Translations under genes and position numbers: made by a program
Shown: piece by piece, positions 30,531 through 41,046 of the stretch
Position numbering within the stretch: position 1 is the stretch's first letter
Layout of the letters: every line of letters starts with the position of its first letter
Source: Rhizobium sp. CCGE531
GTDB lineage: Bacteria > Pseudomonadota > Alphaproteobacteria > Rhizobiales > Rhizobiaceae
DNA: 64,000 nt
Assembly (NCBI RefSeq): GCF_003627795.1
Contig: NZ_CP032686.1
Coordinates: 1-64,000, forward strand
Reading direction: 5' to 3'
Notes under the pieces: model-generated
Databases searched by the model: none
Seen by the model: the letters and a program-made list of their open reading frames with translations, nothing else
What the model was told of the DNA's origin: nothing

Positions 30531-33500
30531 TTAGCTCGCGTGATATGCCGCGATGACGGCGGCGACTTGGTCGGTGTTCATGGCCTGTATCTGCGTCGTC
30601 GTAATGGCGTGAACCTGATCGCTCGACAAGCTTCCGATATCCGTGGTCGATAGACCGGCAACTGCCGAGGTGGTGATAGCCGCGATGTCGGCAGTTGAGA
30701 AAGCGGCGATGTCGGCCGTTGACAAGGCACCGATCTGGCTGGAACTCAGAGCCGTGGTCTGCGCGGTGGTCAGAGCGCCAACCTGGGTGGAGCTCAAGGC
30801 ACCGACCTGGGCGGTCGTCAGGCCGGTCACAGACTTTGCAGTGAGTGCGCCGATCTGCGTGGTCGACAATCCCGCGACATTATCGGTGGTAAGCGCACCA
30901 ACCTGAGCCGCACTCAGCGTGCCAACCTGCGATGCGCTCAGAGCACCGACCTGGGCCGAGGTCAGAGCATGGACCTGGTTGGTCTTGAGGGCGGCCACCT
31001 GTTCCGTCCGCAGAGCCGCAGCCTGGTCAGACGACAAGGTTGCGACATTGGCTTCCGAGAGACCTCCAAGGGCGGTGGTATTGATGGCGGCGATATCGGC
31101 TGTCGACAGACCAGCAATTTCAGCGCTGCTCAAGGCACCGATCTGGGCGGAGTTCAGCGTGCCGACCTGAGCCGTCGTTAGTGCGGCAACATTGGCCGAA
31201 CCGAGTGCTGCGACCTGGGCCGTGGTGAGACCAGCGACCGACTTGGCATTGAGCGCTGCGACCTGAGTGGTCGAAAGGCCCGCGACATTATCGGTGGTGA
31301 GCGCGCCAACCTGAGCCGCACTCAGCGTGCCGACTTGCGAGGCGTTCAGAGCACCGACCTGCGTTGAGGTGAGAGCGTTGGCCTGCGTCGTCTTCAGGGC
31401 AGCAACCTGCGCCGTGGTCAGCGCTGCGGCCTGATCGGAAGACAGAGCTGCGACATTCGACGTCGACAGTCCTCCGAGAGCGGCAGTGTTGATGGCGGCG
31501 ACGTCGGCGGTCGAAAGGCCGGCGACTTCAGCGCTGCTCAGGGCGCCGATCTGGGCGGAGTTCAGCGTCCCAACCTGAGCCGTCGTCAGTGCGGCGACAT
31601 TGGCCGAACCGAGTGCTGTGACCTGCGCCGTGGTCAGGCCAACAACCGACTTGGCGTTGAGTGCCGCGACCTGAGTGGTCGAGAGACCTGCGACGTTGTC
31701 GGTGGTAAGCGCACCAACCTGAGCCGAACTCAGAGTGCCGACCTGCGAGGCGTTCAGAGCGCCGAGCTGGGTCGAGGTCAAAGCGTGAACCTGCGTGGTC
31801 TTGAGCGCCGCAACCTGTGCTGTGGTCAGCGCTGCGGCCTGATCGGACGACAAAGCTGCGACATTCGCCTCGGAGAGCCCCCCGAGAGCCGCCGTGCTGA
31901 TGGCGGCGATATCGGCTGTCGATAGACCAGAAATCTCGGCGCCGCTCAAAGCACCGACCTGAGCCGAGTTTAGGGCTCCGACCTGCGCCGTGGTCAGTGC
32001 GGCAACATTGGCCGAACCGAGCGCACCAACCTGCGCCGTGCTCAGGCCAACAACCGACTTTGCGCTAAGCGCTGCGGCCTGAGTGGTCGAAAGGCCCGCG
32101 ATATTGTCGGTGGTGAGCGCGTTGACCTGCGTTGCGCTGAGGGTGCCGACCTGGGCGGTGTTTAGCGCGCCAAGCTGGGTCGATGTCAGAGCGTTGACCT
32201 GCGTGGTCTTCAGGGCGGCAACCTGCGCCGTCGTCAGTGCTGCAGCCTGATCGGACGACAGAGCCGCAACGTTGGCCGTCGACAATCCCGTGAGAGCTGC
32301 CGTGTTGATGGCGGCGATATCGGCAGTCGAGAAACTTGCGATGTCAGCCGTCGACAGTGCACCGATCTGGGCGGAGTTGAGCGAACCGACAAGGGCGGGG
32401 CTCAAAGCCTCGACCTGGGTCGAGCTCAGTGCTCCGACTTGGGCGGTTGACAGTCCTGCCACAGACTTCGAAGTCAGAGCACCGATTTGCGTAGTCGAAA
32501 GACCGGCAACATTGTCGGTGGTCAGCGCATTGACCTGCGTGGCGCTGAGGGTACCGACCTGCGAAGCACTCAGAGCGCCGACCTGGGTCGAAGTAAGTGA
32601 ATGGATCTGAGTGGTCTTGAGCGCGGCAACCTGGGCTGTGGTCAGCGCCGCGGCCTGATCGGACGAAAGGGCTGCGACATTGGCCGTCGACAGGCCGGCG
32701 AGAGCCGCGGTGTTGATGGCGGCAATATCGGCGGTCGAAAGGCCGGCAACTTCCGCGTTGCTCAAGGCACCGATCTGAGCGGAGTTCAAAGCGCCGACCT
32801 GAGCCGTCGTCAGTGCCGCGACGTTGTCAGAGCCAAGTGCGGCAACCTGCATCGTGGTGAAACCGGTGACCGACTTGGCGGAAAGTGCGCCGACCTGAGC
32901 GGTCGAGAGCCCCGCAACATTGTCGGTGGTCATTGCACCGATTTGTGCGGCATTCAGCGTACCAACCTGGGAAGTACTCAGCGCACCGACCTGCGTCGAA
33001 GTCAGGGCGTGAACCTGCGTGGTCTTCAGGGCAGCGACTTGAGCCGTGGTCAAAGCCGCAGCCTGGTCGGACGACAGCGTTGCAACATTCGCTTCCGACA
33101 GCCCACCGAGAGCGGCCGTGTTGATGGCGGCGATGTCGGCGGTTGAAAGGCCGGCGACTTCAGCGCTGCTCAGGGCACCGATCTGAGCGGAGTTCAGCGT
33201 CCCGACCTGTGACGTCGTCAGTGCGGCAACATTGGCCGAACCGAGTGCTGTGACCTGCGCCGTGGTCAGGCCAACAACCGACTTGGCATTGAGCGCTGCG
33301 ACCTGGCTGGTTGACAGGCCTGCGACGTTGTCGGTGGTGAGCGCACCAACCTGAGCCGCACTTAGCGTGCCGACTTGCGAGGCGTTCAGAGCGCCGAGCT
33401 GGGTCGAGGTCAGAGCGTGAACCTGCGTGGTCTTCAGGGCAGCAACCTGCGCCGTGGTCAAAGCCGCAGCCTGATCGGACGACAAGGCTGCGACATTGGC

Positions 33501-39888: not shown

Positions 39889-41046
39889 ATGCGAGCTAGC
39901 GGAAAAATCGGTATTGCAGGCGCGGGACTGTCAGGGGCGGTGATCGGACGGGAGCTCGCACTGGCAGGTCACCAGGTCGAGATCTTTGATGCACGCGACC
40001 ACATCGCTGGAAACTGCCATACGGAGCGCGACAAGGACACCGGGGTCATGGTCCATGTCTATGGCCCGCACATCTTCCATACCGATGACACCGAGGTCTG
40101 GGACTATGTGAACAGCTTCCAGACCTTCAGGCCCTATAAGAACCGTGTGAAGACGACGTCAAAGAGCCAAGTTTATTCCTTGCCGGTCAATCTGCACACA
40201 ATCAATCAGTTTTTCGGGAAGACCTTCAGGCCGGATGAGGCCCGCGCCTTCATCGAAGTGCAGGCGGATGGATCCATCGACGATCCGCAGACATTCGAGG
40301 AACAGGCACTCCGCTTCGTCGGCAGGGATCTCTACGAAGCCTTCTTCGAGGGATATACCCAAAAGCAGTGGGGCTGCTCGCCGACGGAATTGCCCGCATC
40401 CATCCTGAAACGGCTACCGGTGCGCTTCAACTACGACGACAACTACTTTGCTCACAAATATCAGGGAATGCCTGAAAGCGGCTATACGGATATGGTCGAC
40501 CGTATTCTCGACCATCCCAACATCAACGTCAGTCTCAAGACCCGCTTCCACAGAACACAGAAGCAAGATTTTGCCCATGTGTTCTATTCCGGCGCGCTCG
40601 ACGGCTATTTCGATCACGAATTCGGCCCATTAGGATATCGAACACTCGATTTCGAACGATTCGAATATGATGGCGATTACCAGGGCTGCGCGGTGATGAA
40701 TTATGGTGACGTGAGCGTGCCCTATACGCGGATCACCGAGCATAAGCACTTCTCGCCTTGGGAAGAGCATAAAGGATCGGTTTGCTATCGCGAATTCTCG
40801 CGGGAATGCGGCATTGATGACATTCCTTATTACCCAATCCGCCTCGTCAAGGACAAAGAGCAGCTCGCTCAATATGTGCAGCGTGCAAACTTGGAAGCAT
40901 CGATCACCTTCGTCGGGCGGCTCGGCACCTATCGCTATCTCGACATGGATCTGACTATTCGCGAGGCATTGGATACGGCACGGCTCTATCTTGCTCGAAA
41001 GGCGGACAACGCATCCATGCCAGCCTACCTGCATTCATCGATCTAG
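39889..41046 (+). CDS. glf: UDP-galactopyranose mutase
   Basis: A 385-residue FAD enzyme converting UDP-galactopyranose to UDP-galactofuranose. Seen are the dinucleotide fold [38 protein letters not shown], the hallmark [46 protein letters not shown], and the C-terminal [19 protein letters not shown] that closes the FAD site. All conserved blocks are present and length is normal. ATG 39889 begins the conserved part; TTG 39874 is also in frame. It ends the operon with the two glycosyltransferases, suggesting that galactofuranose is part of the glycan made here. Confidence 0.93.

Follow-up and report, generated by a model that had tools for sequence, protein, structure and literature searches.

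What does a tetratricopeptide repeat (TPR) glycosyltransferase modify when its gene is transcribed away from that of a giant serine- and threonine-rich repeat protein? The question is raised by a locus of Rhizobium sp. CCGE531 lying within positions 1 to 64,000 of contig NZ_CP032686.1 (assembly GCF_003627795.1), the whole 64,000-nucleotide stretch being referred to here as the window. The locus comprises four open reading frames (ORFs), all found at the positions assigned to them in a preliminary description of the window, which had taken the repeat protein to be the substrate of the enzyme and galactofuranose (Galf) to be part of the glycan. Our favored reading, with a probability of roughly 0.7, is that these genes form a dedicated cytoplasmic O-glycosylation module, in which the GT41 enzyme modifies a helical-screw protein at the fourth position of its eight-residue repeats (octads), with Galf. 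Gene linkage, the co-occurrence of the mutase gene glf, and covariation at octad position 4 (the last resting on few independent events) support the repeat protein as the GT41 substrate; from these comparisons of sequences we infer that it is glycosylated, and with Galf. The features of the locus are as follows.

30531..35594, minus strand: ALTTAQ octad-repeat protein, 1687 amino acids, the proposed acceptor (PF20080, octad count, AlphaFold2 model).
35595..36492, no strand: A+T-rich divergent intergenic region, presumed to hold both promoters (from the sequence; G+C about 0.51 in windows).
36493..38553, plus strand: TPR-GT41 glycosyltransferase, 686 amino acids, the proposed protein O-glycosyltransferase (PF13844, TPR models, profile, clade).
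38583..39836, plus strand (longest ORF from 38523): GT-A-like transferase with a galectin-like insert, accessory (PF12248, AlphaFold2 model).
39874..41046, plus strand: UDP-galactopyranose mutase (glf), 390 amino acids from a TTG start, which makes UDP-galactofuranose (TIGR00031, PF03275).

The repeat protein matches Pfam PF20080 (ALTTAQ repeat) with 1144.9 bits, against a cutoff of 26.4, in 75 tandem stretches. Nearly its whole length consists of 210 unbroken octads in a single register, with the consensus A-L-[S/T]-[S/T]-x-Q-[V/I]-[A/G], and its self-identity of 0.77 at a lag of 136 is far beyond chance. Serine and threonine supply 450 of the 1687 residues and occupy octad position 4 in 168 of the 210 units, in keeping with the giant Ser/Thr-rich protein, divergent from the GT41 operon, that had been described. 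Both ends are conserved (N-cap MTSIISSLTVNQI..., C-cap ...QVAAVIAAYxx), with similar ends in the arrays at other loci, and inspection by eye revealed no signal peptide. The protein had also been portrayed as an extended substrate, a view that the structural prediction does not favor: in an AlphaFold2 model of residues 1 to 280 (predicted local distance difference test score, 96.5), 34 of 35 helices start at octad position 4, with position 3 as the helix N-cap, and the predicted fold is a helical screw to which each octad contributes one short helix. The octad rhythm is shared with HeliScrew4 (PDB 9zem; E = 4.5e-15), which, judged by name and sequence, looks like a designed protein; it differs in its length of 120 amino acids, in having mostly proline at octad position 4, and in having no enzyme.

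The TPR-GT41 identity of the enzyme is upheld by PF13844, which it passes in two stretches (230.7 bits versus 25), and by matches to TPR_8, TPR_2, TPR_14, and other TPR models. A profile built from 13 linked homologs finds OGT structures at E = 1.6e-95 and also SPINDLY structures, and K443, which we take to be the counterpart of the conserved catalytic lysine of OGT, is invariant in all 13. TPRs joined to a GT41 catalytic domain are also the plan of OGT, of SPINDLY, and, in the partial accounts that we draw on, of the bacterial OGT homologs XcOGT and that of Thermobaculum terrenum. Enzymes of the OGT/SPINDLY type have broad substrates and use UDP-GlcNAc or GDP-fucose as donors; here, in contrast, there is one linked substrate family, with glf in every genome of the family that has this GT41 and was examined for it.

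GT41 also includes the HMW1C/NGT enzymes, which modify a large exported adhesin, and the repeat protein might accordingly be N-glycosylated by an HMW1C-like enzyme. The HMW1/HMW1C system of Haemophilus influenzae, as far as the excerpts describing it extend, resembles the present locus in pairing one large exported substrate with a GT41 enzyme, but it places N-linked hexoses at sequons and uses two-partner secretion. N-glycosylation of the repeat protein is very improbable on several counts: N-x-S/T sequons number only 7 in its 1695-residue open frame, and their median density in octad arrays is low with or without GT41 (0.20 versus 0.14 per 100 amino acids). The enzyme itself is of the OGT type, with the 13-homolog profile reaching only about 4e-6 against NGT or HMW1C-like chains and the NCBIfam NGT equivalog NF049992 scoring 20.6 bits against a cutoff of 1000.

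The linkage of octad arrays to GT41 and glf that the preliminary description had anticipated extends to other genomes. In a survey of 151 genomes of the family, that of the window among them, 23 have octad proteins and 38 have GT41 (among the matches listed), and 32 octad loci were taken from the 22 other octad genomes for comparison of neighborhoods. In 12 of these 22 genomes, a GT41 63 to 73% identical to that of the window adjoins the array, with glf (67 to 81% identical) beside it in all 12 and the GT-A-like gene in 3; of all gene clusters at the 32 loci, GT41 and glf are the only ones to appear in more than 6. A scan of named genomes, using a profile made from the linked GT41s, gave 149 relatives, and the best 80 of these are the basis of all fractions of 80 GT41 loci below; by their record titles, they come from rhizobia and relatives and one Xanthobacter. 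An octad array lies in the flank of 72 of the 80 loci. The gap to the nearest one has a median of 601 bp and never exceeds 2.25 kb, and arrays occur on both sides of GT41 and on both strands, all four relative arrangements being represented. The other eight loci include four with less than 3 kb of upstream sequence (L117, L119, L126, and L140), and all eight genomes carry octad arrays elsewhere (among the matches listed).

Among the matches listed, array-bearing genomes numbered 80, comprising the 23 from the family survey, 44 with strong matches that were carried on, and 13 with weak matches that were set aside. Thirty of the 44 further genomes of the family have this GT41 at an identity of at least 60%; in 25 of the 30, the array lies within about 10 kb of it, as read from coordinates among the matches listed, in one (G696) the array is on another contig, and four (G596, G692, G761, and G790) stand outside this distance count. 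At the level of the class, a sample of 385 genomes includes 5 with octad matches in addition to that of the window. A GT41 42 to 47% identical is next to the array in three of the five array-bearing genomes from outside the family, two of one genus (G345 and G441) and one of another family (G373). Caulobacter vibrioides, used as a named control, gave matches to both the octad and the GT41 families. The genomes numbered with G and the named loci overlap in species and are not independent samples. In one of the 30 genomes (G784:C20:325504-327483), a GT41 match adjoining the octad array crosses one TGA codon, and L157, whose named stretch contained a stop codon, was excluded from alignment A4.

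Linked enzymes are also related to one another. In a tree of 60 GT41 sequences, built by a quick method, those linked to arrays group apart from the other GT41s sampled, and the window enzyme falls within their clade. One supported clade holds 28 of the 30 linked rows, joined by G373 and one G441 copy; the two linked rows outside it are second copies in G345 and G441, and three rows within it (L107, L129, and L131) come from loci whose flanks show no array.

These results bear on the possibility that GT41 targets another protein, such as flagellin, or a surface polysaccharide, the octad protein being a neighbor in a surface island and perhaps a glycan binder. FlmG of Caulobacter crescentus, a soluble bacterial enzyme of this general kind, glycosylates flagellin with pseudaminic acid (PMC7591256), and polysaccharide genes (a pyruvyl transferase, a flippase, GT25, a deacetylase, and GT2) precede the module at window positions 22313-29840. 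We nevertheless consider this possibility improbable, since the adjacency of GT41 and array holds in every orientation and across families, the GT25, deacetylase, and GT2 genes have no match at any of the 32 octad loci compared within the family, the array-linked GT41s form their own cluster among those sampled, and the presence of the enzyme is tracked by Ser/Thr at octad position 4. FlmG resembles the proposed system in having a dedicated surface substrate modified at threonine and differs from it in substrate and sugar, the cited passages mentioning neither an octad protein nor glf (PMC7591256). Similarly, SPINDLY-domain GT41 enzymes are carried by enterobacterial flagellin islands, which glycosylate a surface protein, and one type of island has galactofuranose genes; the substrate, however, is flagellin, and in the cited passages no link is drawn between the galactofuranose island and GT41 (PMC4875605).

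The mutase gene glf co-occurs with the enzyme. The mutase identity of the glf product is sustained by the TIGR00031 equivalog (305.8 bits versus a cutoff of 303.75) and by PF03275 (262.3 bits). The gene is in the flank of 59 of the 80 GT41 loci, and the remaining 21 loci belong to 20 genomes that all have glf elsewhere, such that all 80 loci are in glf-bearing genomes. Against a background of 35 of 151 genomes in the family survey, glf occurs in 13 of 13 linked-GT41 genomes versus 22 of 138 others (Fisher exact test, P = 7e-10) and versus 1 of the 10 genomes that have octad proteins but not this GT41 (P = 1e-5). In all 12 linked-GT41 family genomes besides that of the window, the module glf is the sole glf found. 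The window genome has one octad locus and, at two places each, matches to GT41 and to glf; its second GT41, which is outside the linked clade, and its second glf are on contig C1 (C1:758664 and C1:2369161). An epimerase gene lies near the module in 17 of the 80 loci, usually directly after glf, and two examples pass the GalE model TIGR01179, so that at those loci the route from UDP-Glc through UDP-Gal to UDP-Galf is laid out beside GT41.

The second transferase of the operon is present as described, and its AlphaFold2 model, a GT-A-like fold with a galectin-like insert, agrees with the lectin-like insert attributed to it; its sole Pfam match at E = 0.01 or better is PF12248. Two points of the description change. 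Conservation among homologs sets in at residue 21 of the longer frame, which puts the probable start of the gene at 38583 instead of 38523, and the gene is an optional accessory rather than a constant part of the module, being present in 23 of the 80 GT41 loci and not found in the fetched flank in 57. Its product perhaps adds a further sugar.

Which enzyme transfers Galf is the next question. Two observations make GT41 itself a plausible candidate for the transfer of Galf: of the 59 loci with glf close by, 41 have no GT-A-like gene, and beside the module there is no other recurrent transferase. We tentatively propose, at somewhat short of even odds, that GT41 moves Galf from UDP-Galf to serine and threonine, i.e., that it is a protein O-galactofuranosyltransferase, and that it labels the screw along one line of its surface, at well over a hundred sites in all and at most one in each octad. 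To our knowledge, no GT41 uses UDP-Galf as a donor. Alternatively, with odds just below even, the first sugar, attached by GT41, is a common one (GlcNAc, Glc, Gal, or Fuc) and Galf is added later by the GT-A-like enzyme or by an unlinked transferase, against which count the sporadic distribution of the GT-A-like gene and the want of any other recurrent transferase in the 32 octad loci.

The candidate site of modification comes from variation among the arrays. Octads were registered by their hydrophobic skeleton, and the proportion of Ser/Thr at positions 3, 4, and 5 was determined for 87 arrays, some of them partial. Each had at least 25 chained octads, with glutamine occupying position 6 in no fewer than 35%; no qualifying array came from G613, G311, G070, or G086, and the named loci L103-L182 were left out. 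The median proportion of Ser/Thr at position 4 is 0.755 in 62 arrays with GT41 versus 0.35 in 25 without it (by genome; P = 1.5e-11), and the corresponding values are 0.755 versus 0.80 at position 3 (P = 0.24) and 0.205 versus 0.19 at position 5 (P = 0.26). Genus medians at position 4 do not overlap, with a minimum of 0.61 in 17 genera with GT41 and a maximum of 0.56 in 12 genera without it (P = 7e-6). Within genus g103, the values are 0.79 and 0.90 with GT41 and 0.29 without; within genome G345, they are 0.95 in the linked array and 0.29 in an unlinked array (L211). Both contrasts agree with the octad protein being the substrate. Alanine or proline is often found at position 4 in the arrays of GT41-less genomes (e.g., L102, L285, and L288), suggesting that the screw fold may serve unmodified or with another partner. 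One 3232-residue octad protein without an adjacent GT41 (G373, L213/L214) lies about 2.5 kb from flhB.

Serine and threonine are common near helix starts, and their enrichment at position 4 might express such a preference, or the history of subfamilies, rather than modification. In a tree of 71 of the 87 arrays, with position 4 masked, the GT41 state changes only 4 times, and about 3 of the 4 independent pairs go in the expected direction and 0 in the opposite one (sign test, P = 0.25); because there are only four such changes, the position-4 signal, although striking, is not significant after correction for descent. We still find this explanation unlikely, since no difference is seen at positions 3 and 5, the contrast repeats inside genus g103 and inside genome G345, and, within a GT41-bearing clade, two nested GT41-less arrays have values of 0.43 and 0.54 versus 0.90 to 0.96 in the four arrays with GT41.

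The scarcity of independent changes and the sign test also weigh against a glycosylation module, as do several other observations. The ranges of individual arrays overlap at position 4, values with GT41 going down to 0.46 (L305) and 0.51 (L217) and those without it up to 0.66 (L094) and 0.64 (L290), and the unlinked array of G345 breaks a simple genome-level rule. Octad proteins also occur without this GT41 in 10 of the 23 genomes and 14 of the 44 further genomes (among the matches listed), and the fold is thus not dependent on the sugar. In the 20 genomes with a distant glf, the best identity to the window glf is 64 to 78% in 10 and only 46 to 48% in the other 10, in which it may serve chiefly another pathway. 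In G345, G373, and G441, the search for glf was confined to 20 kb from each and gave no match, which also counts against GT41 as the Galf transferase. Finally, no export system is conserved with the module at the loci compared.

The O-glycosylation module would operate as follows. The repeat protein would fold in the cytoplasm as a long screw with one short helix per octad, as predicted. The TPR-GT41 enzyme would recognize this screw and glycosylate Ser/Thr at position 4, the first residue of the helix, in many octads, and Ser/Thr at position 3 would instead cap the helix; we infer position 4 as the site from the covariation together with the structural model. Glf, with GalE at some loci, would supply UDP-Galf, and Galf would be either the sugar moved by GT41 or a residue of a glycan built on the sugar of GT41. 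Where present, the GT-A-like enzyme with its galectin-like insert may extend this glycan. The product might then be exported, perhaps through a type I system, which is the weakest step of the scheme. In G345 and G441, genes for an ABC exporter and an HlyD-like protein separate the octad array from the GT41 genes (L210:2690-6273 and L215:4205-7764), a placement that hints at type I export.

Gram-positive serine-rich repeat adhesins offer a parallel, in that a Ser/Thr-rich repeat protein is O-glycosylated intracellularly and then exported, although in the portions of that literature available their export is by accessory Sec. Those adhesins have different transferases and disordered repeats. The literature covered, from which preprints and most subscription papers are missing, yielded no report under the names ALTTAQ or HeliScrew, and none of a GT41 paired with an octad protein or of protein galactofuranosylation.

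Some GT41 loci have a different neighbor. A repeat protein of cadherin-like type, rich in Ser/Thr, is encoded directly upstream of the GT41-glf pair in Allorhizobium terrae (L131:3364-9390), where it has 2007 residues, and in L140 (L140:2-2161), where it is a fragment; the octad arrays are about 18 kb away on the same contig (among the matches listed). This protein is possibly a second class of substrate.

The window is the beginning of a 756-kb contig in a genome of 7.14 Mb. None of the seven other sampled genomes of the genus has an octad match (among the matches listed), and several transposase genes lie upstream of the module within the window, on which grounds the module was probably acquired. 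Two tandem IS66-type transposase ORFs (window 12538-14208 and 14427-16097), both of 556 amino acids and with equal Pfam scores, are apparently a recent duplication. At window positions 41441-41866, the module is followed by a minus-strand gene for a small curlin-repeat protein (PF07012, with weak matches to CsgB/CsgA). A promoter scan of the intergenic region between the repeat protein and GT41 genes found sites no more numerous than in shuffled sequences.

If the proposed module is borne out, a dedicated O-glycosylation pathway would be added to the biology of rhizobia, and a GT41 enzyme would gain a defined, repetitive, and folded acceptor with a predicted site. Galactofuranose would be suggested as a direct modification of protein, and, should GT41 prove to use UDP-Galf, the donor chemistry would be new. 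A regular screw presenting one candidate acceptor per eight residues would also be an attractive substrate for learning how TPR glycosyltransferases read their targets.

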